Origin: a virus
DNA length: 63,443 bases
IMG/VR virus record: IMGVR_UViG_3300005253_000516
Location: 1 to 63,443 of that record
Direction: 5' to 3' (one strand)
Numbering within the stretch: the stretch's first letter is position 1; each line of letters begins with the position of its first letter. The notes beneath the pieces were generated by a model. It was not told the DNA's origin, did no database searches, and worked only from the letters and a program-made list of their open reading frames with translations. This document shows, in pieces, positions 125-57,063 of this stretch. The position numbers and the translations under genes are program-made.

Positions 125-235
125 GGCTAGAACGGCCCAAGCTCCTGATCTTTGATCGGGGCGGTGCGGTCATTATGCGCTAGCCAGGCGCAGCCGTTCT
201 AGCCGCCGGACTGCCTCGATCAAAGGATAGGAGCT
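125..235 (+). promoter_or_regulatory. Structured leader A (stem plus pseudoknot) before HNH-AP2 gene
   Basis: A perfect 12-bp stem pairs 125-136 with 193-204. Its loop holds 140-157, which is complementary to 218-235, outside the stem, in two 7-bp blocks (AGCTCCT with AGGAGCT and TTTGATC with GATCAAA). Both helices together make an H-type pseudoknot; alternatively they are exclusive states of a switch. The second strand ends in a T run and contains the AGGAG ribosome-binding site of the gene at 242. No sigma-70 site is visible directly upstream, so it may be read from the promoter at 63244. The same architecture recurs at four other places. Confidence 0.7.
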
Positions 236-2940: not shown

Positions 2941-2969
2941 TTGACATGGCGCCGAGAATCGCGTATGAT
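2941..2969 (+). promoter_or_regulatory. Sigma-70-like promoter for the replication operon
   Basis: TTGACA at 2941-2946, a 17-bp spacer and TATGAT at 2964-2969. It lies 21 bases after the protease stop and drives a long structured leader and then the replication genes. Confidence 0.85.
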
Positions 2970-2974
2970 GGTGG

Positions 2975-3199
2975 TGTAGGCGTGTGCGGGTAGCCCTCCG
3001 CCACTTTCACGAGTGGCAACCTGTGAGTATCAGGCGGGAACGTAGGGTCCGACGCCTACATGATGAAACTGGGATGACAACCCAGGGAACGCACAACTAG
3101 GTGGGACCACACATGCCTCTTGAATCGATGGTAGAGGCGATGCGGAGGGCGTCTTGTCAACGCCTATGGAGTCCCATCGCCGAATCGCCTTTACCATCG
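2975..3199 (+). promoter_or_regulatory. Long structured leader D of the replication operon
   Basis: The 248 bases between promoter and first start codon carry no gene but strong structure. A 9-bp stem (TGTAGGCGT 2975-2983 with 3052-3060) begins at the predicted transcription start. It encloses the hairpins GCCACT/AGTGGC and CCTG/CAGG, and is followed by CTGGG/CCCAG. A second stem of 15 bp with one G-U pairs 3127-3141 with 3184-3198, ending just before the AGGAGG of the gene at 3218. TGTGCG (2982-2987) could pair with CGCACA (3090-3095), and AGCCCTCC (2992-2999) with the ribosome-binding site. Translational or transcriptional control is an inference. Confidence 0.55.
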
Positions 3200-4631: not shown

Positions 4632-6022
4632 GCCGCATAGCCGCCGAGCAAGCACAGCTACGCCCGCATAGCATCGAAGCTGAGGAGGCGGTTCTAGGCT
4701 CCATCCTCATCGACCCCGACGCTATCCTTCGGGCTCAGGAGGTGGGCCTCGTGGCCGCTGACTTTTTCCGCGTGGCCAACGGCGCCATCTATGCGGCGGC
4801 CATCACCCTTGCTGAGGCGTACAGCGTCGCAGACTATGTGACCATAGGCGACGTACTTGAGAACCGCACGAACGGTGACGGCTCCCAGCTCCACATGATC
4901 GGTGGTGAGTCGGAGCTAACGCGGCTCATAACTCACACGCCTACATCGATACATGCTGGCCACTACGCCGAGATCGTCCACCGCCTCGCGCAACAGCGCC
5001 AGCTTATTGGCGTTGCGGGCGACATCGCAGCAGCAGCTCATGCGCACGATGGACCTATCGAAACGCTTTACGATGATGTGAGCCGCCAGTTTTTCGATGC
5101 CGTGGACGTGTCCGCGCCAGCGTCACATCTGCGAGGCGATGATAACACACTGTCTGACTACCTGGTCAATCAGCAGGCTATCAAGGAGCGGCTGGACGCC
5201 AACCCCGACGCGCTCATCACCACGGGCTGGGCGGACATCGATCGCTACTTGGGTGACATAGAGGCTGGCATGTTGCACGTTGTGGTGGCGCGGCCATCAG
5301 TGGGCAAGACGATCTATCTCGAGGGCATAGCGGAGCACAACGCGCAAAGGGGGCATCATGTCGCGTTTTACCATTTGGAGCTGTCTCATTCACTCATGCT
5401 TAACCGGCGTATGGCGCGTTACAGTGGGATTCCCATCCAGCAGCTCAGGCGCGGCTACACCGGCCCTAAGCTTGCGAGGGCGCTTGACGATATCCGATCC
5501 TGGCACCAACGCATCACATATATTCATTGTGCGGGGTGGTCTGCTGAGCGCATAGCGGCTGACATGGTACGCCTCTGCGCCAGGGGTGAGTGTGACCTGG
5601 CCATCATCGACTATTTCCAGAAGATGCGCTGGCCAGAGCGCAAGGGCGCGAACGTCTCTGCCCTTATGGGTCTCATGGCGGAGACCTTAAAAAACGCCGC
5701 TGAGAGTTTGTCAATCCCCGTGATCACGGCGGCACAGGTGAACCGCTCGTGGAAGGCAAACGCCAAGGGGCGGCCCCATATTGAGGATCTGCGCAACTCG
5801 GGTGAGATCCATGAGAAATGCAATCAAGCCGTGGTGCTACATAGGCCAAACGACCGCGAGGATAGACGCGGGGGCGGCACTTTGGAGGCCATAGAGGCGG
5901 CGGTGGAAAAGAACACGACGGGCGACGTGGGGAGAGTAGACATGTTCCACGAGGTAGGCCGCTTTCGCCTCGTGGGCGTCACGCGCCAGACGAGGCCCGA
6001 GACAGAGGAACTGCCGTTTTGA
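4628..6022 (+). CDS. dnaB: Replicative DnaB-type DNA helicase
   Basis: 464 residues, the usual family length. The N-terminal DnaB domain (about 10-160: LRPHSIEAEEAVLGSILIDP) is followed by the RecA-like motor. Walker A is ARPSVGKT at 221-228, Walker B is LAIIDYF at 324-330, and AAQVNRSW with LRNSGEIHE represent the later helicase motifs. It unwinds DNA 5'-3' at the fork as a hexamer. Part of an operon with the two initiator-like proteins (4-base overlap upstream). The C-terminus ends EELPF, like the acidic tip of single-strand binding proteins and like the protein at 54246. Confidence 0.93.
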   Translation: MSRIAAEQAQLRPHSIEAEEAVLGSILIDPDAILRAQEVGLVAADFFRVANGAIYAAAITLAEAYSVADYVTIGDVLENRTNGDGSQLHMIGGESELTRLITHTPTSIHAGHYAEIVHRLAQQRQLIGVAGDIAAAAHAHDGPIETLYDDVSRQFFDAVDVSAPASHLRGDDNTLSDYLVNQQAIKERLDANPDALITTGWADIDRYLGDIEAGMLHVVVARPSVGKTIYLEGIAEHNAQRGHHVAFYHLELSHSLMLNRRMARYSGIPIQQLRRGYTGPKLARALDDIRSWHQRITYIHCAGWSAERIAADMVRLCARGECDLAIIDYFQKMRWPERKGANVSALMGLMAETLKNAAESLSIPVITAAQVNRSWKANAKGRPHIEDLRNSGEIHEKCNQAVVLHRPNDREDRRGGGTLEAIEAAVEKNTTGDVGRVDMFHEVGRFRLVGVTRQTRPETEELPF

Positions 6023-16873: not shown

Positions 16874-17693
16874 CCCCCTCCGCGCCGCCGTGCGCTACGC
16901 CTGGCTGGGTTGGCGCAATGACCTCGTCGACACGCTGACGGGCTATGGCGTAGACGAGCACCGGGCCGCCGCGCTGGCGAGCTGGGTGGCGCTCAACACG
17001 CAAGAGCACGGCGGGAAACTGAGCGAGTGCCTGCGGGAATGCAACGACCTGGTGGCGTTTGGCGGCGGTACGCATGTGGAGTTTGCCGAGGCGCAGCTAG
17101 AGGAGCAGTCTAGGCGGAGAGCAGATTTCCGTCTCAGTTTGCGAGCCGCAGCGCGAGGAATCTGGACCGGGCAACTTTCTGCGAATGCTGCGCGAAATAC
17201 AATGCTCCTGGCCATTCACCGTCGCTATACCAATGCCTGGCACGAAGGGATGCGACGGGTAGGATTAAAACCAGAGGACATGACTGTAGTAGAAGCGATG
17301 GCCCTGAATACCGCTATTCTGTCTGCGGGTAGGCATGTAACGCGTTTCGTGGCATGGGCGGAAATGAGAACGCGCGCGGACGGCGTGTTGCTTAGGACTC
17401 TCTGGCCGCGAGTTGAGACATGGATAAATGGCTATGATGCTGTCGTGAATCGGGCGACGGCGATGGCGGGGAAGGATGAGAAGCTAGAATGGAGGCTGGG
17501 TGTTGCTGAGCATTGTTCGAGTTGTTTGCGGTTGAATGGCAAAGTTAAGCGGGCTTCATGGTGGGCCAGTAATGGTATATTGCCGAGGCAACCCAATGCT
17601 AGTTATCTGGTGTGCCGTGGATTCAACTGCAAGTGTGTTTTATTGTCAACTGAAAAGCCGCTCAGCAGGGGGCGAATGCCTAAGCTGCCGTAG
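16866..17693 (+). CDS. Minor head / head-morphogenesis protein (SPP1 gp7-like, putative)
   Basis: 275 residues, after the portal gene as expected. The C-terminal third (EHCSSCLRLNGKVKRASWW, ASYLVCRGFNCKCVLLS) has the Cys and Gly pattern found at the end of phage Mu F / SPP1 gp7-type minor head proteins. The N-terminal part is helical. Its stop overlaps the end of the convergent HNH gene by 14 bases. Confidence 0.62.
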   Translation: MNSPLRAAVRYAWLGWRNDLVDTLTGYGVDEHRAAALASWVALNTQEHGGKLSECLRECNDLVAFGGGTHVEFAEAQLEEQSRRRADFRLSLRAAARGIWTGQLSANAARNTMLLAIHRRYTNAWHEGMRRVGLKPEDMTVVEAMALNTAILSAGRHVTRFVAWAEMRTRADGVLLRTLWPRVETWINGYDAVVNRATAMAGKDEKLEWRLGVAEHCSSCLRLNGKVKRASWWASNGILPRQPNASYLVCRGFNCKCVLLSTEKPLSRGRMPKLP

Positions 17694-18459
17694 GAGTTGG
17701 ACAAGGAACGGAGCCCTTCTCTACTAGTCTGTGACATGTTCTGCACAGCGCAATGAGGTTAGACAGTTGATTCGCAGATTCCCAATCGCCGCCAAGATCC
17801 TTTACCTTGCGGATATGATGAATGTCCAGAATCGTGTCACCGCCAGAACGGTAGCCGCAGACTTGGCAAGCATGTCCATCGCGACGAACGGCCTTGCGCC
17901 GTTGGCTATGCCAATTGGGGCCATAGTCAATCAGGGTGGCAGTGCCCCCTGTCCAGTGAGGATTGTTGGAGCCGCGGATGTCAATAGAACGCTGAGCTCC
18001 CCGGCACACATTAGAGCAAAAGCGAGTGTTGCGTTTCTCAACGAATATCTTGTGGACGGTGTAGGCTTTGCTGCAATAGTCGCATGGCTTTGTGATGTAG
18101 CTCTCCGGGCGGCGAGCGCTCGGCTTGGGCTGAATGGCCGCGAACTTGTTGGCACAATGCTGGCAGCAAAAACGACGCTTGCGATAGGTGTAATGGTCAA
18201 ACTGTGTTTCGCACCATTCACAAACGAAGATGGAATGCTTGGTGGGGTCGCGATCGATCCAGCCGTGCGCAAGCCGACAAGCCTTGGAACAGAAACGGCG
18301 CCCGGGGTAGTTCTCGATAAATGGAGCGCCGCACTCTTCACAGGGCTTGGATCGCTTCTTGGTTTTGCGAGCGCTCTCATAGCAAGCTCGGTTACAATAT
18401 TTCTGCCGCTTGTCTTCTGTCTCATATTCAACGCCACAGCGCACGCATGTCTTTTGCAC
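17680..18459 (-). CDS. Reverse-strand HNH endonuclease with multiple zinc knuckles
   Basis: 259 residues from the GTG at 18459, which has GGAGGG four to five bases upstream; a GTG at 18480 is the longer alternative. Four zinc-knuckle pairs in series (CVRCGVEY/YCNRAC, CEECGAPF/FCSKAC, CEWCETQF/FCCQHC, CDYCSKAY/FCSNVC) precede a C-terminal HNH domain: CQVCGYRSG, LDIHHIRKVKDLGG, NLIALCRTCH. Probably a mobile homing endonuclease placed among head genes, read from its own leftward promoter through structured leader E. Confidence 0.88.
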   Translation of the reverse strand: MQKTCVRCGVEYETEDKRQKYCNRACYESARKTKKRSKPCEECGAPFIENYPGRRFCSKACRLAHGWIDRDPTKHSIFVCEWCETQFDHYTYRKRRFCCQHCANKFAAIQPKPSARRPESYITKPCDYCSKAYTVHKIFVEKRNTRFCSNVCRGAQRSIDIRGSNNPHWTGGTATLIDYGPNWHSQRRKAVRRDGHACQVCGYRSGGDTILDIHHIRKVKDLGGDWESANQLSNLIALCRTCHRLVEKGSVPCPTPTAA

Positions 18460-18480
18460 CGGTCCCTCCAAACAGAACAC

Positions 18481-18574
18481 CCCGTTGGCCGTCTCCGCTC
18501 TGTTGTCGAGGCAGCGCGGTGGCCAACGGGATGAACGTCAGATTATAAGAGCTTTGGATGCGCCGCCTCGACAA
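18481..18574 (-). promoter_or_regulatory. Structured leader E (stem plus pseudoknot) before HNH gene
   Basis: Read on the - strand, a 14-bp stem with one G-U pairs 18574-18561 with 18516-18503. Its loop contains CCCGTTGGCC (18530-18521), which is perfectly complementary to GGCCAACGGG (18490-18481) 12 bases beyond the stem. The transcript should begin at the first stem base. The geometry (30-base, 4-base and 12-base connectors) is almost the same as in leader B (27, 3 and 12). Confidence 0.72.
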
Positions 18575-18578: not shown

Positions 18579-18607
18579 AGTATAGCATAGTGACGATTGG
18601 TTCGCAA
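18579..18607 (-). promoter_or_regulatory. Leftward promoter for the HNH gene
   Basis: On the - strand TTGCGA (18607-18602), a 17-bp spacer and TATACT (18584-18579). RNA should start at about 18572, inside the first base pairs of leader E. Confidence 0.65.
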
Positions 18608-21384: not shown

Positions 21385-21386
21385 AT

Positions 21387-21458
21387 GGGCCGATAGCTCA
21401 AGGTAGAGCACGACTCTTAATAAGGTCGTGGTTGGCGGTTCAAGTCCGCCTCGGCCTA
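21387..21458 (+). tRNA. tRNA with 8-nt anticodon loop (TAA most likely, Leu-type codon)
   Basis: A 72-base cloverleaf folds: acceptor 21387-21393 with 21451-21457 (one G-U), D stem GCTC/GAGC, anticodon stem CGACT/GGTCG, T arm GGCGG-TTCAAGT-CCGCC and discriminator A. The anticodon loop is CTTAATAA, eight bases rather than seven. With U33 in the usual place the anticodon is TAA (21418-21420); AAT is the other reading. There is no long variable arm, unlike ordinary Leu tRNAs. It may be a frameshift-suppressor type or a decaying tRNA. Confidence 0.7.
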
Positions 21459-21471
21459 TTGGTCGCAACGC

Positions 21472-39323: not shown

Positions 39324-39394
39324 ACGGGTTGCACTGTTTTGGCTAACGCGCGCTCGCCTTGGGGTATGCAACCCGTCCCCGTGGCGGGCGCGTT
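39324..39394 (+). promoter_or_regulatory. Structured leader F (stem plus pseudoknot) in the tail operon
   Basis: A perfect 10-bp stem pairs ACGGGTTGCA (39324-39333) with TGCAACCCGT (39367-39376). In its loop AACGCGC (39345-39351) and CGCC (39355-39358) are complementary to GCGCGTT (39388-39394) and GGCG (39383-39386) downstream. The element fills the 116-base gap between tube and chaperone genes, the largest gap in the tail module. It has no promoter, so it acts on the operon RNA, perhaps setting the ratio of tube to downstream proteins. Confidence 0.65.
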
Positions 39395-39420: not shown

Positions 39421-40119
39421 ATGATCGAAACATATACGACTGAAGACGGCTTGGTGCTCAAGCTCAAGCGGGTTACTCAAGTTCTGCTGAATGCCGTATC
39501 AGAACGCGTGAAGCAGGAATGGGCTAAGAATAATGAGCCAGTAGAAATTCCAACTTTCACAGTCGATGAAGGGAAGGCGGATGCGCAGAGATTCCAGCAT
39601 CGCGTCACGGAAAAGGGCAACACCCTTGATATCAAGGATGATCCCAAGCAGACGCGAATCAATCGTATCATGTGGGATGCACACAAAGACGCCTTGGAAC
39701 GGCTTGCTTCCGCGCAGCAAGAGGCGCAGGCACAAGCTATGTTTATGTTTGGGATCGTCTGCGACTTCCCGGAAGAGGGGGAATGGACTGCCCAACTGAA
39801 ATTCGCGGGGCTCGAAGTTCCTGAAGATCCTATAGAGAAACGGTTTGCGTACTTGTGGTACTACGCCCTCTCTGTCTACGACAAAAAGATGCTCATATCA
39901 ATCCTAGAGGTACTCAGCCTCGGCAAGATGGTCAAGCCGGAACAGATGTCACTCTTTCGTCGCCGGGCTGCAAGTGCAATGGACGGAATCGCGGAAGGGA
40001 TCTTCGACGAGGCTTTTGACGCCCTTGACGAAGCTGCCGATTCCCGCAGGGAGCTGGACGGTGAGCCTGAGCTTTCTGGAGGGGAGGACGGCGAAGGCGT
40101 GGAAGATACCGTGGGGTGA
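39421..40119 (+). CDS. Tail assembly chaperone, gpG-like (232 aa)
   Basis: AAGGGAGAGTC precedes ATG. An acidic helical protein between tube and tape measure genes, the usual site of the chaperone pair. It has DFPEEGEWTAQLKFAGLEVPEDP and a disordered acidic tail (ELDGEPELSGGEDGEGVEDT). It should chaperone the tape measure. The second chaperone frame overlaps its last 59 bases. Confidence 0.68.
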   Translation: MIETYTTEDGLVLKLKRVTQVLLNAVSERVKQEWAKNNEPVEIPTFTVDEGKADAQRFQHRVTEKGNTLDIKDDPKQTRINRIMWDAHKDALERLASAQQEAQAQAMFMFGIVCDFPEEGEWTAQLKFAGLEVPEDPIEKRFAYLWYYALSVYDKKMLISILEVLSLGKMVKPEQMSLFRRRAASAMDGIAEGIFDEAFDALDEAADSRRELDGEPELSGGEDGEGVEDTVG

Positions 40120-40228
40120 ATGGGAAGAAATGGACCCAAACGACAAAACTATGATGATGGCCGTTGACATAGCCGAGTCGAAGATGGAATCCTGGGAGAC
40201 GATAGTAGCCGAGAGGAACCGTAAGTAG
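40061..40228 (+). CDS. Second tail chaperone frame, gpT-like (55 aa)
   Basis: The GTG at 40061 has AGGGAG seven bases upstream, so independent initiation is possible. The product AWKIPWGEWEEMDPNDKTMM continues with AVDIAESKMESW, typical of the T part of chaperones. It lies in the +1 (or -2) frame relative to 39421, so a gpG-gpT fusion would need a +1 or -2 shift, not the usual -1. Its stop overlaps the tape measure start. Confidence 0.6.
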   Translation: MSLSFLEGRTAKAWKIPWGEWEEMDPNDKTMMMAVDIAESKMESWETIVAERNRK

Positions 40229-43200
40229 TGGCATTCCCGAGCATCGGTCTCGCCGCCATAATGGACGTGAAGGATTTTACCAAGGGCGAGCAGCTCTACA
40301 CGTCTGGCCTGGCCAATATGAACACGAAAACAGAGTCAACCGCCAAGCGCATCGCCCGCGCCCTGGGCAGCATCACAAAAGTCGCCCTCGGCGTTGGTGT
40401 TTCTGCGGGGGCGGCCCTAGTCGGATTAGGCGCTGTGTTCCTAAAGCTAGCGGCTGATGCGGCGCCTGTGCCTGCCATCGCTCAGTCGTTCGTTGCTCTC
40501 GGCGGATCCATCGAGGCCATGCGCAAGGGGAGCTTGGGCCTCATCACCGACGTCGAGCTGATGAAATCGTTCAACGTAGCTGCATCGCTCGTCTCGCGCG
40601 ACTTTGCCCAAAAGTTACCTGACGCAATGTTGGCTCTTGGCAAAGTCGCCGCGTCCACCGGGCAGGACATGGGGTTCCTGCTCAACTCCCTGACGACTGG
40701 CGTTGGGCGCCTCTCTCCGATGATCCTCGACAACCTGGCTATCCAGGTGAGCCTGACAGACGCCTACGAGGACTTTGCTTCCGCCAATGGCCTGGTCGCA
40801 ACAGAGCTCTCAAAGACAGAGCAGCAAGCCGCCTTGATGGCTCAGGTGATGGCAAAGCTAAACGCAAACACCGCCGATCTGCCAGACATCGCAGGAAACG
40901 CCTCGACGCAGCTCGGTTCTATGTCCGTTATGTTCAAGAATCTGAAAACGGATATGGGCGTGGCGTTTCTGCCCGTCCTGCAGGCGGTGCTAGAGCCATT
41001 GATTGCGTTGTCAAGATGGATATTGCCCTCAATTGTCTTTGAGGTTAAGCGCCTAGCTGCTTTCCTGCTGCGGACAGTCGTTCCCTCTTTCACTGCGGTG
41101 ATCAAAACGGCCATTCGTTTTTTATCAGTTTGGTTAGAAGGCCGCGGCTTCCTCGCCGCAACCACGGAGCTTTTGCGCCGCCTTATACCGGAAGAGACGA
41201 TAGCGAATGCTATGAGGCTGGCCAGCGCCATTGAAACGACCTTTGCGCGCATTCGGGTCGCCATCACATCCGCCATGGCGGTTATTCGGGCCGTGGTAAG
41301 CAATGTCGGCGGCCGTGTTAGCGCGGGCAGATCGTGGCTTGTTGACGCGCTGGGCCTGGCGCCAGACATGTTGCAGCAAATCAGAACGGCCTTCTCTTCC
41401 CTAGTAGCTAGGCTTCGGGCGGGCTTCGCCGAGGTAAAGCGCGTCGTGTTGGGCGTCTTCCAAGAGTTCAGCACGGGGGGGCTCCGCGGCGGATTCAAGA
41501 CAGCGCTAGCCAAGGTGCTGGAAGTTGCCCCGACGATTCTAGCGTTCCGTCAAAAGCTCATCACCAAACTGTTCGAGGTTGGGCGAACACTCCTCACGGC
41601 CCTGGGTGATATGTTTCCCTCTATCAAGCCGCTCATCGACGAGTTCCTGATTCCCATTCTCAACATCGGTGAACGCGTTGTGAGCACGTTTACACAGATG
41701 AAAACGGACGTCCGCCGCGTGCTGCTCTCTATGCTCGGGCTCGTCAAAGAGCCGCTGGAAGAGATCGGTCGCACGTTCATGTCGGTCATGGGCAATATCC
41801 TGCGCATCGTCGAAAGGGTCTGGCCCAGCGTATTGGCAACCATTCAGCGCGTCGTGCCTGCCGCGCTCACGATCATCTCGGGCATCATGCCTATCGTGCG
41901 CGCCGTGGGCAATGTGCTAGAGACCGTGCTGGGTGATGCGATACCGTTCGTGCTTGATCTGTTCGCAGAGATGGCAGAGTTCATCGCTGACAAGATGCCG
42001 CAGATTCAGCGCGTCATCACCAAGGCGCTGGATGTGATCAAGATAGTTTGGAGCGCGGTGTGGCCCATTCTGCAAAAAGTCGTTGGCGTGGCCTGGGGCG
42101 CGATTCAGAAGATGATCACGACAGTCATCAATGTCGTCGAGGGTGTCATCGACGTGTTCCTCTCGGCGCTGGAAGGCGACTGGGAAGCAACGTGGGACGG
42201 CGTCAAAGAGATCCTGGCCACGTGGGTAACGGACATCCTCGACCTGGTGGAAGGCGTTGTCAACGACATTGCCAAGGCATTGGGCGTCAAGAACTTTGAC
42301 ATCGGCAAGATAGTCAAAGAATGGATCGGGATTGGGAAAGACATGATCGACGGTTTGCTAAAGGGCGTGAATGATACGCTGGGCGGCATCAAGGGAATCT
42401 TTGACAAAGCGATTGGCCAGTTGCCCAAGTGGGCGCGGAATATCCTGGGTGCAACATCGCCCTCGCGCGTCTTTGCCGAGCTCGGCATCGATATGATGAT
42501 CGGCCTCGGCAAAGGCATCGACGAGGGCCAGGCCCAAGTGATCAAAAAACTCACCAAGGCCATCGGCAGGATCGTCAACGCATTCTCGCAGCTCCTAGAG
42601 ATACAGCGAGAGTTCGGCCTGGAGGGCGGCGGACTCCCGGACATAGGGAACTTCCTAGACCAATTCGAGGCGGCCATCGTCGCGGTGCTAGAGCGGCTGG
42701 ATTCGATCATCGAGCGCATTGGCGAGAAACGCATTAAAAAGATTCGCAAATCGGCGAAGCGGCTCCGCGAGATCCTAGACGCAGTGATGATCGACCTGTC
42801 GAAGATAGCCACGGCCACGTTGCCCGACCTAGGCCGGTGGCGCGACCAGGTCATCGACGTGACGCGTGCAGTGCTGGAGGTGCTTGGGCATCTGGCATTC
42901 GAGTTCGGCACGCAGGCCATAGAGGATGCGGCGGAGTGGGCCGGGGCGGTATCTGATCTGGTAAGCATCGTGGGCTCTGCTGTCGATGCACTGGCGGCCC
43001 TAACGGAGTTCAAGGCGGTAGCCAATCTGCCGAAACTCGCGGAAACATTCGCGAACCAACTCCTGACGATAGTAAGCAAGTTCACGCTTGTGCGCCAGCA
43101 ATACGGCATCACGTTCACGGATGACGTCAACGCGTGGTGGGCGAGCGCCAAGACAATCATCGACGTAGTTACGGGCGGCGTTCAGGCACTCGCTGCGATG

Positions 43201-45054
43201 ACTGAGCTCAAGATCGTCACGAACATGGGCCTGGTCGCCGGGATATTTGCGGACCAACTGCTGATGCTAGTACGGGAGTTCAAGCGCGCGAAGGACCGCT
43301 ACGGGCTCGAGTTCGCAGAGGACGCCTCCGATTGGTGGGCAAACGTCCAGTCGATCATCGGGATCATCTCGGGCGGAGTCGAGGCGCTGGCAGCCATGCT
43401 AGAACTCAAAATCGTCACCAATATGCAACTCGTAGCGGGGATATTCGCAGACCAACTCATCACCCTCGTGGATGAGTTCAAGAAGGTCAAGGATCGATTC
43501 AAGATCGACTTTGCGGAAGATGCCAGCGCATGGTGGTCCACGGCGCAGTCAGTTATCGGCATCGTCAAGCCGGGTATCGAGGCGCTGGCGAGCATGCTGG
43601 ACTTTGCACGCGTAGAAAACATAGCAGGCAAGGCCCGCGATTTCGCCGACGACTTGGCCTCTGTGGTTTCCGAGCTGGCGCGAGTCGCCATGGGGTTTGT
43701 CTCCGTTGGCGAAGATGGGGCGGTTAGCGGGCTAGAGGCCGCCGAGAGATTCGGAGCCGCCGCCGCGACCATCGTTGGCGCGGTAGGGCCTGGAATCTCT
43801 GCCTTGGCTGGGCTTATGGATTTCACGCAAGTTGAGGACATCGCAGCCAGGGCGCGCGACTTTGCAGACGACCTTGCCATAGTGGTTACGGAACTGGCCC
43901 GCGTGGCGACAACTTTCATAACTGTCGGAGAGGACGGTGCGCTCAGTGGCCTAGAAGCTGGCGAGCGGTTCGCAACTGCGGCAACAGCCATCGTAGGCAT
44001 GGTCGAGCCAGGCATCAAGGCCCTCGCGGCCCTCATGGGATTCACGAGGGTCCAGGGCATCGCTCAGAAAGCTGCCGACTTTGGGGCCGACCTGGCCATC
44101 GTCGTGCGAGAGCTCGCAGACGTCGCCAGCGAGTTCGTGGTCATCGGCGAGGATGGCTCGGCCAGTGGCCTAGAAGCAGCAGAGCGATTCGCATCGGCGG
44201 CGGGCAAGATCGTCGGGTTCATCGAGCCCGCAATCAAAGCCCTGGCAGCTCTGGGGACGCTCACCGCAACGGAGAATCTGACTGGTAAAATCGCCCTATT
44301 CCGGCGGCAGATCGGCGAGGTTTTGACCGCTATCCAGGCCATAGGGGAATCATTCGCGCGAGGTGGCGGCAGAGCGCAGTTCCCGGGCGCTGGACGTGGG
44401 GGCGACGCCCCAGGCACTAGCGGACTAGAAGCGGCAGAGCTGTTCGCAAGCGCAGTGGCTACTATCTCGACGGGAATCAAGGGCGCGATCGATCTGATTG
44501 ACGGATTCATGACGTACAAGGGCCGCGTGATAGCTGGCGGCCTCGCGACGTTCGCGCAGAACATGCTGCAGTTGCGGATACTCCTAATCGAGCAGGCCGA
44601 CGCAATGGAGACGGCAGTGCCAGCCGCACAACGATTCGGCGCTGCGCTAGCGATAATCAGCGCAGCTATCAAGGCGGGCTTGGATCTCTTGGTAGGACTC
44701 CCGACCGTCGGGACCGGATTGCTGGCAGGGCTGGGGGCGAGAATCCGTGACGCCCTTGCCGAGGTCACGGCGGCCTTTACGTCAGAGACCAGCTCGGCGG
44801 CGGCAGCGGCCTACGCCTATGGGTTCACGGTTGGCAGAGGCGCGAGCTTTGGATTCCGCGACGGCTTTGCTAGTATCCCCACACCGACGTTCACGGTTGG
44901 CGCTCCCGCTGGCGGAACCGGCGGTTCGGACACGCCCCCGCGGGGGGCGACAACCGTGAACATCACTATCTCAGGCACGACGATCAATAGCGGCATAGAC
45001 GCGGCTACATTCAACGCCAGTGTAACACAAGCAGTGAAGGAAGCCATACGGTGA
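40228..45054 (+). CDS. Tail tape measure protein (1608 aa)
   Basis: The largest gene; GTG start overlapping the previous stop. The N-terminal helical region with IMDVKDFTKGEQLYTSGLAN and several hydrophobic segments is typical. Residues about 950-1400 contain tandem units of roughly 75-80 residues (AGIFADQLLMLVREFKRAKD, ARDFADDLAIVVTELARVA, SVGEDGAVSGLEAAERF). Length scales with tail length, so a long flexible tail is expected. No lytic transglycosylase or peptidase domain is recognised. Confidence 0.9.
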   Translation: MAFPSIGLAAIMDVKDFTKGEQLYTSGLANMNTKTESTAKRIARALGSITKVALGVGVSAGAALVGLGAVFLKLAADAAPVPAIAQSFVALGGSIEAMRKGSLGLITDVELMKSFNVAASLVSRDFAQKLPDAMLALGKVAASTGQDMGFLLNSLTTGVGRLSPMILDNLAIQVSLTDAYEDFASANGLVATELSKTEQQAALMAQVMAKLNANTADLPDIAGNASTQLGSMSVMFKNLKTDMGVAFLPVLQAVLEPLIALSRWILPSIVFEVKRLAAFLLRTVVPSFTAVIKTAIRFLSVWLEGRGFLAATTELLRRLIPEETIANAMRLASAIETTFARIRVAITSAMAVIRAVVSNVGGRVSAGRSWLVDALGLAPDMLQQIRTAFSSLVARLRAGFAEVKRVVLGVFQEFSTGGLRGGFKTALAKVLEVAPTILAFRQKLITKLFEVGRTLLTALGDMFPSIKPLIDEFLIPILNIGERVVSTFTQMKTDVRRVLLSMLGLVKEPLEEIGRTFMSVMGNILRIVERVWPSVLATIQRVVPAALTIISGIMPIVRAVGNVLETVLGDAIPFVLDLFAEMAEFIADKMPQIQRVITKALDVIKIVWSAVWPILQKVVGVAWGAIQKMITTVINVVEGVIDVFLSALEGDWEATWDGVKEILATWVTDILDLVEGVVNDIAKALGVKNFDIGKIVKEWIGIGKDMIDGLLKGVNDTLGGIKGIFDKAIGQLPKWARNILGATSPSRVFAELGIDMMIGLGKGIDEGQAQVIKKLTKAIGRIVNAFSQLLEIQREFGLEGGGLPDIGNFLDQFEAAIVAVLERLDSIIERIGEKRIKKIRKSAKRLREILDAVMIDLSKIATATLPDLGRWRDQVIDVTRAVLEVLGHLAFEFGTQAIEDAAEWAGAVSDLVSIVGSAVDALAALTEFKAVANLPKLAETFANQLLTIVSKFTLVRQQYGITFTDDVNAWWASAKTIIDVVTGGVQALAAMTELKIVTNMGLVAGIFADQLLMLVREFKRAKDRYGLEFAEDASDWWANVQSIIGIISGGVEALAAMLELKIVTNMQLVAGIFADQLITLVDEFKKVKDRFKIDFAEDASAWWSTAQSVIGIVKPGIEALASMLDFARVENIAGKARDFADDLASVVSELARVAMGFVSVGEDGAVSGLEAAERFGAAAATIVGAVGPGISALAGLMDFTQVEDIAARARDFADDLAIVVTELARVATTFITVGEDGALSGLEAGERFATAATAIVGMVEPGIKALAALMGFTRVQGIAQKAADFGADLAIVVRELADVASEFVVIGEDGSASGLEAAERFASAAGKIVGFIEPAIKALAALGTLTATENLTGKIALFRRQIGEVLTAIQAIGESFARGGGRAQFPGAGRGGDAPGTSGLEAAELFASAVATISTGIKGAIDLIDGFMTYKGRVIAGGLATFAQNMLQLRILLIEQADAMETAVPAAQRFGAALAIISAAIKAGLDLLVGLPTVGTGLLAGLGARIRDALAEVTAAFTSETSSAAAAAYAYGFTVGRGASFGFRDGFASIPTPTFTVGAPAGGTGGSDTPPRGATTVNITISGTTINSGIDAATFNASVTQAVKEAIR

Positions 45055-47105
45055 GTAACGCGATTCTGGCGATAACAGACGGTACGCTGCGCTATTCGCT
45101 CATCACGCGGCCCTGGCAGCTCGAGGACTGGATACCACAGGATCCACTTCTCAAAGGCGGCGGGATCCGCCGTGGGTCGCCGCTAAGTGACGGCACTCGC
45201 CTCATAGACTTTAGCTACGCCAACACGATCGACACGTTCATGCTCAAAGTTATGCACGGCGAGCAGGACGGCGCGATTCGGAATCTTCAGGATATGAAGC
45301 GGCTACTCGAAAAAGGACGCCGCTACTGGACGGACGATTGGGCGACTGAGCCCGTCTGGATCGAAGCGCGGGGCTCTGACGAAACCAATATCCGATATGC
45401 GATTATCAAAAACTGGTCGTTGCCGCAAGGGTCAAACCCATACGCGCAGCCGTTCTTCCCGCAACAGCAGGAAGCCGTGATGGAGGGCCTCGTTCTGACG
45501 CTGGAGCATGACTTCTGGCAGGCGGACGAGCCAGGGACGGGGACAGCCACGGAGATCTCGGCGCAGCAGGAATACGCCGCGGTCACTTATGGGCGCGGCC
45601 AAACGACCGCCGAAGAGGTCTATGTTGCCAACCGCCACAACGAGGCAAACATCACGCACATCTTCACCTGGACATCACCTGCCGGGCCGTTTGGTGGCAA
45701 CCTGATTGGCGCCGGCCTGCCATTCGACATCTTTGCAGGAGGTGCCGCCGGGCCAGCAAATGGCGACATCACGTACTTCGGGATCAATACGGCGCTTGCT
45801 GATTCGGGACCGTTCGCCAGTCTAGTATTCGACATTGGCTCAGCAGCAGCTTATGGGGCTGGGGATTCTGTTACATGGGAATACTGGAATGGGGCGTGGG
45901 TTGGGCTGACCATTGTTGACAATTCGACGGGACTGCCTTGCGCTGAAGACGCATCCTTCACAAGACCCTTCGTCAATTCCATCCATTGGGAGCAGCCTAG
46001 CGATTGGGCAACTGTAGCAGTGAATGCCATTACGGGCTATTGGGTGCGTTTGGTAATCACAGAAGCGACAGGCATCCTGAGAGCTCAACAGAGGAATCGA
46101 GATATATACTCCATCGTGTGGCCATTTGTAGAACTCGACGAAGCGGACGTTCTCGGAGATCTTCCAGCCCTGGTACGCATACGAGCGCAGGCCGTGAGTG
46201 AGTGTCGATATGATGCCACTAACATAGACGGCTATGTCAATCGCATCATGATCGGATTGCGTTCGCTAGCACGCGATGTTTCTGCGCCAGCATTCCGGTC
46301 CTTCGTCAATCTATCAGATGAGCAAAACCCGGCGACTGTGAGCATCAGCGTTCATGGGACCGCCGTTTTCGCTACGGATACTGAGACGCCAAGCGGCCGG
46401 AGAATCACATGGTCCCCAGCGGGAATAGAGGTCATGGCTGATAGAGCCCAGTGCAACTGGACGTCGCCGCGGTCCTGGTATGGGGAGTATCATCTGTTTG
46501 TGCGCTATCAGGTGACAAGTGGCAGCGACGGCGATTTGCGAATGAGAGCGATTACCAGCTTTTTCATCGGTGATCCGCAGTTTACCACCGATACGGTGGA
46601 TCTGACGGCCGGCACCGAATGGCACGTCGCAGATCTGGGCCGTATCACATTGCCGCCTGGAGGGCCTAGCAACATCTCGGAAGTAGCCAATATGACGCTG
46701 CATATCGAGGCGCAGAACACTGTTGCTGCGGCGCGTGTTTTGCATCTATACGATTTCATCCTCATGCCGGTTGACGAGTGGTTTGCTGACGTCCAGGAAA
46801 ACGTAACGCCGAGCACGCCCTTCGGGTTTCCCATTGATAATCTTCATCATCTGGACCTGGATCCATTATCAGAGCCGAAGAGACTAACCGCTCATGTTCA
46901 GGCAGGCATACTGCAGCGCGCCATATACATTCCGTACACAGCCGGGCTTCCGATTCTGCAAGCAAACGCTGATCAAAAGCTACACTTCTTTATGATGCGC
47001 AATCCCAGCAGAACCACGATCCCGCGCGTATCAGAACCCTACCTCGCGCTACGTGTTTGGCTGGAGAGGGTTGACCGCTATCAGTCTATGAGAGGCGCCA
47101 GGTGA
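45051..47105 (+). CDS. Distal tail-like protein (684 aa)
   Basis: GTGA overlap with the tape measure, the usual place of the distal tail protein. Residues 1-160 resemble a Dit-like N-domain (AILAITDGTLRYSLITRPW, EDWIPQDPLLKGGG). Several beta-rich domains follow (about 200-330 and 400-620) that may be carbohydrate-binding. It should form the tail-tip hub scaffold. Confidence 0.68.
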   Translation: MSNAILAITDGTLRYSLITRPWQLEDWIPQDPLLKGGGIRRGSPLSDGTRLIDFSYANTIDTFMLKVMHGEQDGAIRNLQDMKRLLEKGRRYWTDDWATEPVWIEARGSDETNIRYAIIKNWSLPQGSNPYAQPFFPQQQEAVMEGLVLTLEHDFWQADEPGTGTATEISAQQEYAAVTYGRGQTTAEEVYVANRHNEANITHIFTWTSPAGPFGGNLIGAGLPFDIFAGGAAGPANGDITYFGINTALADSGPFASLVFDIGSAAAYGAGDSVTWEYWNGAWVGLTIVDNSTGLPCAEDASFTRPFVNSIHWEQPSDWATVAVNAITGYWVRLVITEATGILRAQQRNRDIYSIVWPFVELDEADVLGDLPALVRIRAQAVSECRYDATNIDGYVNRIMIGLRSLARDVSAPAFRSFVNLSDEQNPATVSISVHGTAVFATDTETPSGRRITWSPAGIEVMADRAQCNWTSPRSWYGEYHLFVRYQVTSGSDGDLRMRAITSFFIGDPQFTTDTVDLTAGTEWHVADLGRITLPPGGPSNISEVANMTLHIEAQNTVAAARVLHLYDFILMPVDEWFADVQENVTPSTPFGFPIDNLHHLDLDPLSEPKRLTAHVQAGILQRAIYIPYTAGLPILQANADQKLHFFMMRNPSRTTIPRVSEPYLALRVWLERVDRYQSMRGAR

Positions 47106-48304
47106 CGACGCCGACCTTTCATCAAACGACTGGACTCTCTATCAATGTGTTCCAGCCTACTATTGCACTCACAGAAGCAACGGAGAACAGCGCTGTTTAT
47201 GTTCCCGAAGGAACGCTCTTTGAAACGCTGACAAATGTAATTTCCGCCTACGGCCACATCCTCACAGCAGTCGGCGGCTTTTGGGAAGCCAAGATCACGA
47301 TGCTGGGATCACAGCTCACCCTAGAGCGCTGGCTGCAACAGGGCCTCGGCAAGCACATCGTCGTCAAAGACGAGGGCGCGAATACAGTATGGGAGGGTTA
47401 TGTCGACAAAGTGACGATCAATGCAGCGGGGCTCTCTACCGTCGTGGGCGGCCTCCGTGACATGGCGAACCGGGCTAGCGTGATCTACTCTACAACAGAC
47501 ACAAGCGTCGATCCCCCGCAGGTAGGTATCCGGGATGAGACGCCAATCTCTGAGGATGCCGACAGCCAGCGACGCTATGGTATCCTAATGCAGGTGCTCA
47601 GCACTGGCGGCGTCACAGCAACAGCGGCGCTACAGATTCGGGACATGTACGTTGCGGAGAGATCCAAGCCGGCGATGACAAAGCAGCTCGATCTCTCGGG
47701 AACGTCTGGCCAGCAGAGCATCACGCTGGATTGCCTTGGGTATCATGCGTGGCTCAGCTACATCTTTCGGAGCACGACGACGGGCTTGCAGAATGCCTCT
47801 GCGAAGCTAGCGGCGGTGCTGGATGCTGATGTCAACTCGTTATTCTCCTCGGCGAATGCGAGCATCGCCACGAATACTGAGCAGGTCAAGGCATTCGAGA
47901 CGCGCAACGAAACGGCCTGGGCGCATGTGAAGGACATCGTGGGGCGCGGCGACGCGAGCGACGATAGGCAACTATTCGGCATCGGGCCGGGGCGCTTCGT
48001 GACATACGGGCCAGCGCCGACAGAGGTCGAGTACCATCAATACATCACGGGCGAGAGCCAACAGGTTACTACGGTCTATGGTGCGCCTGTAAAGCCCTGG
48101 CAGGTGAGGCCCGGCAAATGGCTACGCTTCCCCGATCTGTTGGCGGGGCATACGTTCCCGACGGACTTGAGGGATAGCCCGCGCAGCATGTTTATCGAGC
48201 GGGTGATTTACACGGCGCCCTACGGATTGCAACTAGAGGGAGGGCCGACCGATCGGATTCCACAGCTCATCGCAGGGATGGGGCTGTCAGGCATAGGAGG
48301 CTAA
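47102..48304 (+). CDS. Tail tip / baseplate hub protein (400 aa, putative)
   Basis: GTGA overlap. Contains FWEAKITMLGSQLTLERWLQ and GANTVWEGYVDKVTINAAG, a hub-like beta domain seen in phage tail-associated proteins, in third place after the tape measure. No peptidase motif is recognised. Confidence 0.6.
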   Translation: MTTPTFHQTTGLSINVFQPTIALTEATENSAVYVPEGTLFETLTNVISAYGHILTAVGGFWEAKITMLGSQLTLERWLQQGLGKHIVVKDEGANTVWEGYVDKVTINAAGLSTVVGGLRDMANRASVIYSTTDTSVDPPQVGIRDETPISEDADSQRRYGILMQVLSTGGVTATAALQIRDMYVAERSKPAMTKQLDLSGTSGQQSITLDCLGYHAWLSYIFRSTTTGLQNASAKLAAVLDADVNSLFSSANASIATNTEQVKAFETRNETAWAHVKDIVGRGDASDDRQLFGIGPGRFVTYGPAPTEVEYHQYITGESQQVTTVYGAPVKPWQVRPGKWLRFPDLLAGHTFPTDLRDSPRSMFIERVIYTAPYGLQLEGGPTDRIPQLIAGMGLSGIGG

Positions 48305-49311
48305 TGGGTTCAGTCCAGATCCACAACGCGGAACGCGACGCACTGCAGATACCAGACCGCCAAGCCTACGAGCACTACCACGAGCCGCTCGGCGACTTTG
48401 GGATATTCAACGGCCAGTTAGAGCAGGGGCTTGCTGGGCGATACGCCAACGATCTGGCGCAGGGCATAGAGGGATGGACGCTAGAGCCATTTGCTGGCGG
48501 CACGATAGATAGAGTTACGGGAGGACTCGCCGGCAACTGGCGCTTGCGTGGCGGCCAGGCAGGAATGGGCCAGGGCGGTCTTGCCATATCGTGGAAGTAC
48601 ATCCCGGTCGATGAGGACCGAGACTATTATGCCAGCGCCGCTTTCATTGCCAACGACGCAGCGGCGACGGTATTCCTGCAGGCGTTTTGTTATACCGCCG
48701 CGAAGGTCTTCATCGCGGCAGCAAACATAGTTAATAACGCCACCCCCGGTACGTCGTGGGTGAGATACCAGCGAAACATCGGCCCGAATGGCGACGTGGC
48801 TTGGCCTGCGAATACACGCTATGTGCGAATCCGCGTTGTCCTACAATTCAACGGTGCGCTGACGGGAGCGTTCGCCTATGTCGATGACGTGCAGTTCCAG
48901 CAACTCAAAAAGACATACTCGCCGCTGATCCGGCTCGTAAGCGACCGCATTTCAAGTGATGCTACGCGGACGTTCAACGCGGGCGCAGCCCTGCTCTGGG
49001 CGGGAAGCCCAATCACGTTGACGCTCGAGGAGCTGGGCTATATCTGGTATGAGTACAACGGCGTCGTGTGGGGGGACACTATAAACGTGATGGCATGGGA
49101 TATAGAAGTGTTCATAGACGGCGTGTCCGATAATCTCATTGTCGGCGGAGTTCCGGTAGTGAGTAACAGAACGCCGTTTTCGATGAACCAACGCAGCACA
49201 CTGAGCTATGCAGCGGGACCGCACACGCTAGATGTGCGCGTTACCGATAACGTCGGGATAGTGCAGGGAGCCCTCATTCGTGGCAGCGCATTCTATGTGA
49301 GGGTTAATTGA
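48304..49311 (+). CDS. Tail tip protein with carbohydrate-binding-like domain (335 aa)
   Basis: TAATG overlap. Residues about 50-185 (GWTLEPFAGGTIDRVTGGLAGNWRLRGGQ, RYVRIRVVLQFNGALTGAFAYVDDVQF) look like a galactose-binding jelly roll. The C-terminal half is another beta domain (SPITLTLEELGYIWYEYNG). Candidate receptor-binding protein at the end of the tail module. Confidence 0.62.
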   Translation: MGSVQIHNAERDALQIPDRQAYEHYHEPLGDFGIFNGQLEQGLAGRYANDLAQGIEGWTLEPFAGGTIDRVTGGLAGNWRLRGGQAGMGQGGLAISWKYIPVDEDRDYYASAAFIANDAAATVFLQAFCYTAAKVFIAAANIVNNATPGTSWVRYQRNIGPNGDVAWPANTRYVRIRVVLQFNGALTGAFAYVDDVQFQQLKKTYSPLIRLVSDRISSDATRTFNAGAALLWAGSPITLTLEELGYIWYEYNGVVWGDTINVMAWDIEVFIDGVSDNLIVGGVPVVSNRTPFSMNQRSTLSYAAGPHTLDVRVTDNVGIVQGALIRGSAFYVRVN

Positions 49312-50144
49312 TGCGCGACTGGAAATGGGCGCTGCTGGCGCTGCTGGTTTTGGGAATGGCTTTGGTGCTATTTGCCAACGGCATGGATGTTTCTGCACAG
49401 GGTGCATGGGTCCACGGGCTAATCGACGCCGACAATCGCGCAGGCTACAAAGTCCGCCTGGAACGCTGGGCTGGTGGTTGGGAACGACGCGGCTGGAGTA
49501 GGACGAATATCAGCGGCGCCTGGGGAATCGGCGCACCAATGGCGGGGTGGTATCGGGTGAGACTGGAAGAGATGCCCGCTGGCGCGAAGATGATCGGGGC
49601 GCGCTATCCAGGTGGAATCAATGGCCGAATGGACGCGGCAAATCGGGCGGTAGAGTTTAACGTCCCGGCTACCGGGTTGGTTGGTGACATCGTGTTCATC
49701 ATCGCATCGGCGCCCACGGCGACAGCAACCGCTACGCTTTCTCCGCCAACCGCTACGCTTTATGTGCCCACAGAAACACTTTATGTACCCACGACGCTCT
49801 ACCCGCCGACGGTGGATCCAACCGCGACGGCGACGCGAACACCGCGCCCGACAGCGACAGCGAACCCAGCGGTCAGCTATATCGAAATCTCGCCACATAT
49901 CCAGGGCACGCTTATGGCCTATACGGATTTGATGCTGCAAGAGTTCACACCGGCGTCATGTTTCGAGATTGCCGCTGCTGAGAAGGGCTGCCCATTGGCG
50001 GTGACACAATCGTGGGTTGCGCAGGTTGACGGGGAGTGCTGGAAGTTCCGACCATTCTCATGCCCTGGCAGCGACGGAATCGAGCTCGCGGCGCGCTGCG
50101 CGGCACCCTGCGAGGTGGCGGTTATAGAGGACGGCTATTGGTAG
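49311..50144 (+). CDS. Exported protein with Pro-Thr linker and Cys-rich end (277 aa)
   Basis: TGATG overlap; the ATG at 49311 gives a signal sequence (WKWALLALLVLGMALVLFANGMDVSAQ). A beta domain follows (residues 30-125), then a linker rich in PTATAT and PTATLYVPTE repeats (about 128-190), then a C-terminal domain with six or more Cys. Such Thr-Pro-Ala linkers are common in Chloroflexota exported proteins. It may be a host-derived surface protein or a tail-tip lipoprotein-like factor. Confidence 0.65.
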   Translation: MRDWKWALLALLVLGMALVLFANGMDVSAQGAWVHGLIDADNRAGYKVRLERWAGGWERRGWSRTNISGAWGIGAPMAGWYRVRLEEMPAGAKMIGARYPGGINGRMDAANRAVEFNVPATGLVGDIVFIIASAPTATATATLSPPTATLYVPTETLYVPTTLYPPTVDPTATATRTPRPTATANPAVSYIEISPHIQGTLMAYTDLMLQEFTPASCFEIAAAEKGCPLAVTQSWVAQVDGECWKFRPFSCPGSDGIELAARCAAPCEVAVIEDGYW

Positions 50145-50188
50145 TTCGTCGCGATGCTAGAAAGGCACACACAAGACAGGACGGATCA

Positions 50189-50506
50189 ATGAGCGAGAAA
50201 AGCGAAGCGGCTACCCCGAACAAGGGCAACGCAGCGCTGACAGATACGTTGGTGCGCTGGCTCAAGCTCATAGCCATACTGCTGACGCTGATAGGTTTCA
50301 TCGTGGCCACGTCGGCGGCGTGGACGACGATGGAAGCGCGGGCCACGGCGCTTGAACGCTCAGACGAGGTGTTTATGGAGCGTGTCCTACGCATAGAGTC
50401 AGAACAGGCCCAGATGCGGGACGTGTTGGTGGTGCTACAACAGGGCCAGGCGGGCATGGATGCGAAGCTCGACATCCTGGTTGGGGACAGGCGCAAAGCG
50501 CCGTAG
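50189..50506 (+). CDS. Membrane protein of the lysis module, XhlA-like (105 aa)
   Basis: The ATG at 50189 is preferred to a long upstream read-through. A single membrane helix (LKLIAILLTLIGFIVATSAAW) is followed by a helical tail (RVLRIESEQAQMRDVLVVLQ) as in haemolysin XhlA-like phage proteins that accompany holins. Its location right before a holin-like gene supports this. Confidence 0.6.
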   Translation: MSEKSEAATPNKGNAALTDTLVRWLKLIAILLTLIGFIVATSAAWTTMEARATALERSDEVFMERVLRIESEQAQMRDVLVVLQQGQAGMDAKLDILVGDRRKAP

Positions 50507-50514
50507 GAGGAACC

Positions 50515-50880
50515 ATGACACTCGAGCAAGCATTGATCTGGGTTGCATCTGGGGGCGGGGCAGGCATAATCGCCTTCCTCATCATAGAGCGCTGGGCATG
50601 GGGCCTGTCTCTCGATCCTAAGCCTCGCCAGCTTTTGGCGTGGGTTATCTCTGGGCTGTGCGGGCTTGTGGCCCTTGGCGGAGGCCTTGCACTTGGCTAT
50701 CAGGCGATGCCGGCGACTGGCGAAGCCTGGGCCTCGATTATTTGGTTGGCCATCTCAACAGCGATCGGTGGTGCGAAACTTGCGCACACGTTCGCAGTGC
50801 TAGGCAAGTTCACCCGTGACCCCTATGGTAGCCGCATCGAAAAGCCGCCGCCATATCGACCACCATATCATCCACACTGA
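50515..50880 (+). CDS. Putative holin (121 aa, three membrane segments)
   Basis: TAGGAGGAACC precedes ATG. Hydrophobic segments at about 5-24, 40-63 and 68-90 (LLAWVISGLCGLVALGGGLALGY and neighbours) with a Pro-rich cytoplasmic-type tail. Last gene of the late operon. No endolysin with a known fold is recognisable next to it; the exported cysteine protease at 1960 is one candidate partner. Confidence 0.6.
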   Translation: MTLEQALIWVASGGGAGIIAFLIIERWAWGLSLDPKPRQLLAWVISGLCGLVALGGGLALGYQAMPATGEAWASIIWLAISTAIGGAKLAHTFAVLGKFTRDPYGSRIEKPPPYRPPYHPH

Positions 50881-50974
50881 CATGCCCGCCCGCCGCCCGG
50901 TTCCCCTTGCCGGGTCGCGGCCTCCTTTCCTCCTTGGGTACCTGACGCCTAACGGCTGAGGGTGCCCAGGTTGC

Positions 50975-51003
50975 TTGACATACGGCCCAGCATCGTGTAC
51001 GAT
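50975..51003 (+). promoter_or_regulatory. Sigma-70-like promoter for leader B and HNH-AP2
   Basis: TTGACA (50975-50980), a 17-bp spacer and TACGAT (50998-51003). RNA should start near 51010, at the first stem bases of leader B. Confidence 0.8.
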
Positions 51004-51007
51004 ATGG

Positions 51008-51099
51008 GTGCTGGCGTGTGTCCTCTGCAATAATCCCATAGTGAGAACGGCCCGAGCGGGGCGACACATGCCAGCACGTGTGATCAAAGCCGCTCGGGC
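51008..51099 (+). promoter_or_regulatory. Structured leader B (stem plus pseudoknot)
   Basis: A 15-bp stem with one G-U pairs 51008-51022 with 51063-51077. GCCCGAGCGG (51050-51059) in the loop is perfectly complementary to CCGCTCGGGC (51090-51099), 12 bases past the stem. The second strand ends 23 bases before the HNH-AP2 start codon and is followed by a pyrimidine-rich stretch and GGAGG. Same architecture as leader E on the other strand. Confidence 0.75.
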
Positions 51100-51122
51100 T
51101 TCTCTGCGTCTTGGAGGCAATC

Positions 51123-51605: not shown

Positions 51606-51644
51606 CGAGTTTTGCCACAATCCGATTATGTACTGTCAAACCCC

Positions 51645-51673
51645 TTGACATCTCGTGTCATCTCGTGTATAAT
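51645..51673 (+). promoter_or_regulatory. Consensus sigma-70 promoter
   Basis: A perfect TTGACA (51645-51650), 17-bp spacer and TATAAT (51668-51673): the strongest promoter in the window. It drives the operon of small genes beginning at 51719. The spacer contains a direct repeat of TCTCGTGT. Confidence 0.93.
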
Positions 51674-51718
51674 CATGGTAGAGTTGAGTGGGACAGGGGA
51701 CACACGAGGAGCAGAGAG

Positions 51719-51925: not shown

Positions 51926-51945
51926 CCCTTCACCCCGAGACGCCC

Positions 51946-51966
51946 GCCCGGAGCACGACTCCGGGC
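51946..51966 (+). terminator. GC hairpin between small genes
   Basis: A perfect 8-bp GCCCGGAG/CTCCGGGC hairpin with a 5-base loop, ending directly at the AAGGAG of the next gene. There is no U run, so it may cap or stabilise the upstream mRNA or limit translation rather than terminate. Confidence 0.5.
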
Positions 51967-51980
51967 AAGGAGAGCAACCG

Positions 51981-52229: not shown

Positions 52230-52234
52230 ACGAA

Positions 52235-57062: not shown

Positions 57063-57063
57063 G

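Follow-up and report, generated by a model that had tools for sequence, protein, structure and literature searches.

Five genes in a stretch of phage DNA of 63,443 nucleotides (nt; IMG/VR record IMGVR_UViG_3300005253_000516, referred to below as the window) are each preceded by a leader element of one architecture, in which two long helices, S1 and S2, cross to form a pseudoknot. The same fold recurs before HNH endonuclease genes and other genes of unrelated phages, and it does so without a conserved sequence. Homing endonuclease genes must limit the harm that they cause to the phage that carries them, and work on T4 has shown RNA hairpins and weak terminators doing so. The recurrent fold seems to serve a comparable role in numerous unrelated phages, and our results suggest that it is an RNA device, so far undescribed, by which these genes are limited or timed.

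An initial annotation of the window had assigned one design to five loci (here A–E). A script that searches for crossing helices, run over the whole window, recovered all five as H-type pseudoknots with two helices of about 8–24 base pairs (bp) each; every one sits 5′ of a gene, and all rank among the top pseudoknot scores of the window. Pseudoknot A (125–236, + strand) consists of S1 at 125–136/193–204 and S2 at 139–162/213–236, with the tail TTTTTC and the Shine–Dalgarno sequence (SD) inside S2. B (18478–18574, − strand) has a 15-bp S1 (18574–18560/18517–18503), a 13-bp S2 (18533–18521/18490–18478) and a loop L3 of 12 nt. The L3 of D (51008–51100, + strand) is also 12 nt long; its S1 comprises 15 bp (51008–51022/51063–51077) and its S2 11 bp (51049–51059/51090–51100), and the SD, GGAGG, lies beyond the fold. 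In E (59524–59625, + strand), S1 pairs 59528–59539 with 59586–59597, or reaches 59524/59601 in a longer form, S2 is an 8-bp helix (59563–59570/59618–59625) and the tail is TTTGCGTTGT. C (39324–39393, + strand) combines a 10-bp S1 (39324–39333/39367–39376) with an S2 of about 17 positions (39348–39364/39377–39393); since the two helices adjoin, they cannot both be formed in full at the same time.

Nested folding misses the pairing in A–E, because a nested fold cannot hold both helices at once. When only the longest uninterrupted Watson–Crick runs of S1 and S2 were counted, we obtained 12+9 bp for A, 10+10 for B, 12+8 for E, 8+10 for D and 10+7 for C. In 772 dinucleotide shuffles, perfect helices summing to at least 20 bp were expected 0.10 times per window, and those summing to at least 18 bp 0.95 times. 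A, B and E, all with at least 20 bp, are thus each well beyond chance singly, whereas D (18 bp) and C (17 bp, by this count alone within the shuffle range) stand out only through their position and design. Further high scorers at 44886, 61645 and 56135 lie inside coding sequence and depend on G-U pairs or long gaps. A candidate sixth element, F (3100–3199, + strand; score 63), precedes the ATG at 3218 of an HNH gene. Its S2 of 20 nt (CGATGGTA..CGG/CCG..TACCATCG) is accompanied by a weak S1 (TGGGAC/GTCCCA); with a contiguous S1 of only 6 bp, F is weaker than A–E, and this S1 may be a chance pairing.

The element is not confined to the window. With the HNH protein encoded after D as the query, we reached a different phage (locus L002) whose nuclease is 56% identical and in which TTGACA..TATGAT is followed by a pseudoknot unrelated in sequence and then by the HNH start. 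In a first scan of 230 nt upstream with a score of at least 50, pseudoknots were present at 14 of 130 HNH loci, compared with 5 of 1137 control windows. A wider scan accepted pseudoknots scoring at least 46 or kissing folds (described below) scoring at least 72. It placed the fold before 30 of 214 unique HNH starts (14.0%) and before 15 of 1026 other genes from the same loci (1.5%; p = 7e-14), a frequency that is only roughly estimated for the other genes, as HNH loci served as bait. The preference for HNH genes put forward in the initial annotation is thereby borne out, and several of the matches before other genes are good elements themselves. Among HNH genes with a recognisable promoter 45–230 nt upstream, 20 of 64 had a pseudoknot, as against 7 of 150 without such a promoter.

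All these elements follow a common plan: promoter, 5′ strand of S1 at the transcription start, loop, 5′ strand of S2, loop, 3′ strand of S1, short loop, 3′ strand of S2, T-rich tract, SD and start codon. They share this plan and no sequence; helices and loops alike differ between copies. The median length is 94.5 nt (interquartile range (IQR) 85–102), with 12 for S1, 15.5 for S2 and 18 nt (IQR 15–21) from S2 to the start codon. The promoters ahead of the folds are of the sigma70 type or of the Bacteroidota type (TAnnTTTG), and S1 begins a few nt after either. The genes behind are mostly HNH/AP2; rarer ones resemble NUMOD4-type HNH, GIY-YIG, replication initiator and TnpB genes (labels assigned by eye, with no family search), and a few are unassigned. 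The element is tied neither to Chloroflexota nor to HNH genes alone. Two element-bearing genes served as seeds for a search with NUMOD4-type HNH proteins; among 64 genes, four further ones (L417, L418, L434 and L441) had promoter-linked folds, and two weaker matches look spurious.

We found no convincing upstream pseudoknot at HNH relatives in eight named cultured phages. Bacillus phage Stahl (L284, 732–772) has an annotated terminator directly 5′ of the HNH ribosome-binding site, without 5′ pairing. At L047 (2898–6468), three tandem HNH/AP2 paralogues each have their own promoter, pseudoknot and T-run; this triplet could serve to follow duplication and drift of the element. One HNH leader (L108, 2472–2610, + strand) has no pseudoknot and instead a 20-bp 5′ stem around smaller hairpins, another way to lock the 5′ end. 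A viral contig bearing a leader pseudoknot (L029) also encodes a permuted tmRNA (5010–5239, + strand; RF04321, 62.8 bits).

The second helix resembles an intrinsic terminator. S2 is usually followed directly by a T-run, and the T fraction at its 3′ edge, positions −2 to +1, is 0.60, 0.60, 0.74 and 0.69, and roughly half of the bases up to +6 are T. The 7 nt after S2 hold 4.6, 4.4 and 3.0 T in three G+C classes, compared with 1.9, 1.8 and 1.3 at matched start-codon distances of other HNH leaders. A stable stem with a following T-run thus characterises the element set, and is weak in window copies C, D and E.

In promoter-bearing leaders without a pseudoknot, we observed a kissing variant: one 5′ hairpin stands where transcription starts, a terminator hairpin precedes the gene, and their loops are complementary. 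Such pairs are GTGGTAG/CTACCAC (L308), GTGCAAG/CTTGCAC (L059), GGTCAAG/CTTGACC (L297), GTACAAG/CTTGTAC (L105) and GTGGAC/GTCCAC (L314), and in L206 the pairing involves 11 nt. A kissing score of at least 70 was reached by 14 of 214 HNH leaders and by 1 of 566 control windows. Canonical terminators are common as the second hairpin, for example TGCCCGATAG..CTATTGGGCA followed by ten T in L314. Both topologies are thus predicted to pair the 5′ end of the transcript with the loop of a terminator-like hairpin that closely precedes the gene.

Several lines of evidence indicate that the fold is selected as RNA. Helix mispairs on the sense strand of the curated elements, under a scoring that weights both kinds alike, comprise 67 G-U and 24 A-C (p = 7e-6). 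Such an excess of G-U argues for selection on the RNA and rules out inverted repeats maintained at the DNA level, for which equal numbers are expected. The initial annotation had proposed that pairing is kept while sequence differs and had suggested a covariance model of the five copies; as these copies are not homologous, that model is not the right tool, and we looked for covariation among relatives of single elements, where it was found. In one homologous family (L290, L202, L215, L302 and L336; alignment A4), position 3 of S1 is G-C, T-A or A-T in different members, and S2 is altered on both strands. Among relatives, native strands gave 12.6 for S2 and 10.0 for S1, compared with 7.2 and 8.1 for swapped strands; for nine kissing pairs the values were 7.1 and 2.8.

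We tentatively interpret the element as a promoter-proximal attenuator, giving this slightly less than an even chance; termination itself is an inference. Each element would form the first ~95 nt of the transcript from its own promoter, and S2 with its U-rich tract would act as an intrinsic-terminator-like hairpin directly 5′ of the ribosome-binding site of the gene. The loop of this hairpin would pair with the transcript 5′ end, either directly (S1 of the H-type form) or via the loop of the 5′ hairpin (the kissing form). S1 could form once its 3′ strand emerges, placing the 5′ strand of S2 near the point where the 3′ strand will exit, so that S2 would close just behind RNA polymerase at the U tract and cause termination or strong pausing. 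Many transcripts would then go no further than the U tract, leaving a short RNA whose two ends are locked, while some polymerases, or polymerases altered in infection, would read through and yield the endonuclease mRNA. Expression of a potentially harmful mobile nuclease would in this way be kept low or delayed.

The two helices may be paired simultaneously in the cell. Their summed energies fall below the nested minimum free energy in 22 of 35 elements when the pseudoknot penalty is ignored. L2 and L3 together span at least 7 nt in 31 of the 35, which makes the helices compatible rather than exclusive and argues against a classical antiterminator switch, although the search itself required non-overlapping helices. 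The anticorrelation of L2 and L3 lengths expected of a strict H-type fold was not found (rho 0.01).

Several observations count against attenuation. The T-runs are short or broken in the G+C-rich window copies C, D and E, where termination would be weak, and no recognisable promoter adjoining S1 was found for A or C. When terminators were scanned for strictly, complementarity between loop and 5′ end was only modestly enriched before HNH genes (3/25 vs 13/509, p = 0.03), and some of the 13 are copies of this element that precede genes of other kinds. The loops of a few copies (C and L050) are too short for two complete helices. Additionally, the curated set was chosen partly on promoter or HNH context, so its share of promoters is not independent.

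Other explanations share part of this evidence. It is unlikely, yet worth serious consideration, that the element is a protective, insulating leader whose pseudoknot seals the 5′ triphosphate from RppH, RNase E or RNase J, leaves the SD free and prolongs the life of the mRNA of a singly promoted gene without any termination. This would fit the start of S1 at the predicted transcription start; in most copies, moreover, the SD is not part of the fold, with about 18 nt separating S2 from the start codon. Structure at the 5′ end is known to hinder RppH and RNase E, and some mRNAs gain stability from it (PMC3997798). A single 5′ hairpin would suffice for such protection, however, and the terminator-like second hairpin with its T-run and the pairing of the 5′ strand with its loop are left unexplained. 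We consider a translational switch distinctly less probable. Here ribosome entry would be gated by pairing between the loop and a site ahead of the gene, and translation of a leader open reading frame (ORF) through the fold would modulate this pairing, as in the activator pseudoknot of IncI-alpha repZ. An ATG-started ORF does run through the fold in 13 of 34 elements (6.7 ± 2.2 in shuffles), several leader ORFs overlap the start of the gene through ATGA, and the SD of A is inside S2. Yet open frames are at chance level (29 vs 29.0), an ATGA overlap is expected wherever a gene starts with ATGA, most SDs lie outside S2, and many copies have stops in all useful frames. On the same counts, with ATG-started ORFs only mildly over-represented, we kept the leader ORF as part of this alternative and not as a general feature of the element.

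The combination of promoter, compact fold and T-run also resembles a complete small RNA gene, and before another HNH gene of the window phage the same place is taken by the DUF3800-VII RNA, which is a small RNA in Rfam. That the element is a stand-alone gene of this kind, acting in trans or with the nuclease while the gene merely lies behind it, seems improbable to us: there is no conserved sequence or loop for recognising a partner, and the spacing to the start codon is tight (15–21 nt). Very few promoter-bearing copies were without a listed ORF immediately downstream, and HNH genes follow at least two of these. That the RNA might guide the nuclease was judged unlikely, as the 5′ and 3′ ends of the RNA both fall within the promoter–gene cassette (no target-site comparison entered this judgement). 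Chance complementarity together with ordinary hairpins in G+C-rich leaders is hardly credible. It could account for a single weak copy such as C taken alone, and some pseudoknot matches in coding regions are due to chance; for the whole set it is refuted by the shuffle counts, the gene and window controls, the G-U/A-C asymmetry and the covariation.

Attenuation by a terminator whose loop holds the transcript 5′ end is therefore our preferred reading. We regard as possible, but somewhat more doubtful, a wider proposal: a widespread, sequence-free class of phage leaders in which the 5′ end of the transcript plugs into the loop of its own promoter-proximal terminator, in two interchangeable topologies, to control homing endonucleases and other singly promoted phage genes across bacterial phyla. 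The leaders offer a simple system in which to ask whether a pseudoknot can terminate transcription, and how pairing between the 5′ end and a terminator loop alters termination. The interpretation in the initial annotation held as far as RNA selection, 5′ placement, HNH preference and the lack of a named family are concerned; it offered three functions without choosing between them, and it missed the T-run after S2 and the kissing form.

In the window, promoter-like sites stop about 5 nt 5′ of S1 in B, D and E and place the predicted transcription start at S1; the initial annotation had noted three copies that start within a few bases of such a start. The site before B (18579–18607, − strand; TTGCGA-17-TATACT, extended −10, 9/12) and the one before D (50975–51003, + strand; TTGACA-17-TACGAT, 10/12) end 5 nt before S1, and the longer S1 form of E starts directly after its site (59495–59523, + strand; TTGACA-17-TATGAT, 11/12). 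A, B and D precede HNH genes, as anticipated, and these are of two types. The gene after A (242–718, + strand) encodes an HNH_3 and AP2-like endonuclease (PF13392, 28.9 bits, cut-off 24.8), and that after D (51123–51605, + strand) an HNH_3 endonuclease, a paralogue 55% identical to the former. The gene after B (17680–18480, − strand) encodes a zinc-ribbon and HNH endonuclease (PF01844) with a likely GTG start (VQKTCVRCG...) inside the ORF. The products of the genes after C (39421–40119, + strand; 232 amino acids; just 5′ of the tape measure gene, 40228–45054) and after E (59647–59904, + strand; 85 amino acids) belong to no assigned family. Upstream of F, before the same HNH gene, a near-consensus promoter (TTGACA-17-TATGAT, 2941–2969) and the DUF3800-VII RNA (2975–3065; 47.5 bits, gathering 36.2) together occupy 2941–3065 on the + strand; the likely start of this gene is the ATG at 3218 and not the GTG at 3101.

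The window phage encodes terminase, portal, head protease, DnaB-like helicase and tape measure proteins. Its ends, 1–94 and 63350–63443, resemble each other with one mismatch seen, and with this terminal repeat the record looks complete; a promoter at 63244–63272 and a short ORF near 63333 run over the end junction toward A. A query with positions 44000–63443 found no close relatives in the phage collection. One fragment, L010, has a terminase identical to that of the window phage, and element B is identical there too. A type II hammerhead ribozyme candidate lies at 52228–52300 (+ strand; 34.4 bits, gathering 37, E 0.0034) with its core intact, and another phage that carries the leader element has a candidate above the cut-off (L177, 2711–2771, + strand; 39.1 bits). 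The tRNA at 21386–21459 (+ strand) has an enlarged anticodon loop, for which ARAGORN gives the four-base anticodon taat and the Rfam alignment an inserted base; it is possibly a frameshift-type tRNA.

The initial annotation knew of no named family with this design, and our searches agree. Rfam families gave no match at A–E or at the elements of 40 related loci scanned, and no intron family, and hence no group I intron core, was matched in the window or the scanned loci. A literature search, mostly outside subscription journals, found no paper describing the element before phage HNH genes, whether as pseudoknots or as kissing loops. Sequence-homology families such as those of Rfam cannot see an element of this sort, and more of its kind may exist; under the wider proposal above, with only the architecture conserved, covariance-model searches would miss it as well. 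Riboswitches have a conserved ligand-binding sequence, and the elements share no sequence at all. The HK022 put and EAR antitermination RNAs are likewise 5′-terminal, in transcripts of phages or bacteria, but there conserved sequences act on RNA polymerase, and the leader elements have none.

In the activator pseudoknot of IncI-alpha ColIb-P9 repZ (Asano and Mizobuchi, 1998), a segment in the loop of a long 5′ stem is said to pair immediately ahead of the gene, and a leader peptide is said to be involved. The leader elements resemble it in where the loop pairs, and a leader peptide may lie inside them; the plasmid system reportedly differs in its short pairing, sequence-conserved loop and antisense RNA control, in the lack of a terminator-like T-run and in serving plasmid replication genes. 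The DUF3800-VII RNA (RF02967), like the elements, directly follows a promoter and precedes an HNH gene in the window phage, and its 5′ strand is locked in a stem after which the consensus has U's; unlike them, it has a multibranched fold, conserved sequence and no pairing of a loop with the terminator. The HMP-PP (thiS) riboswitch with its terminator-embedded aptamer likewise has a terminator hairpin close upstream of the gene and, connected with it, a possible pseudoknot (PMC6478431). It relies on a conserved ligand-binding sequence and mutually exclusive states, whereas the leader elements have compatible helices and no such sequence.

The closest systems are those of the T4 family (I-TevI, I-TevII, I-TevIII, segB and mobE) and seg43 of Aeromonas phage 25, where RNA hairpins or terminators control homing endonuclease genes and the weak mobE terminator ends about 30% of transcripts (PMC2988022). 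With ribosome-binding-site hairpins and this weak terminator as examples, control of the kind proposed here has precedent. In these systems too, structured RNA immediately precedes phage homing endonuclease genes or occupies their 5′ part, and the seg43 hairpin lies directly 5′ of a free ribosome-binding site. The T4-family structures are single hairpins, mostly hiding the ribosome-binding site, on read-through transcripts. In the leader elements, by contrast, the transcript would start at the fold, the terminator-like loop is predicted to pair with the 5′ end, and the ribosome-binding site is mostly free: the median distance from S2 to the start codon is 18 nt and the SD lies past S2, with A as an exception. 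Structured control of phage endonuclease genes is thus already known; no description was found of an architecture that recurs without sequence conservation and in two topologies, and the chances are fair that it merits recognition as a separate class.
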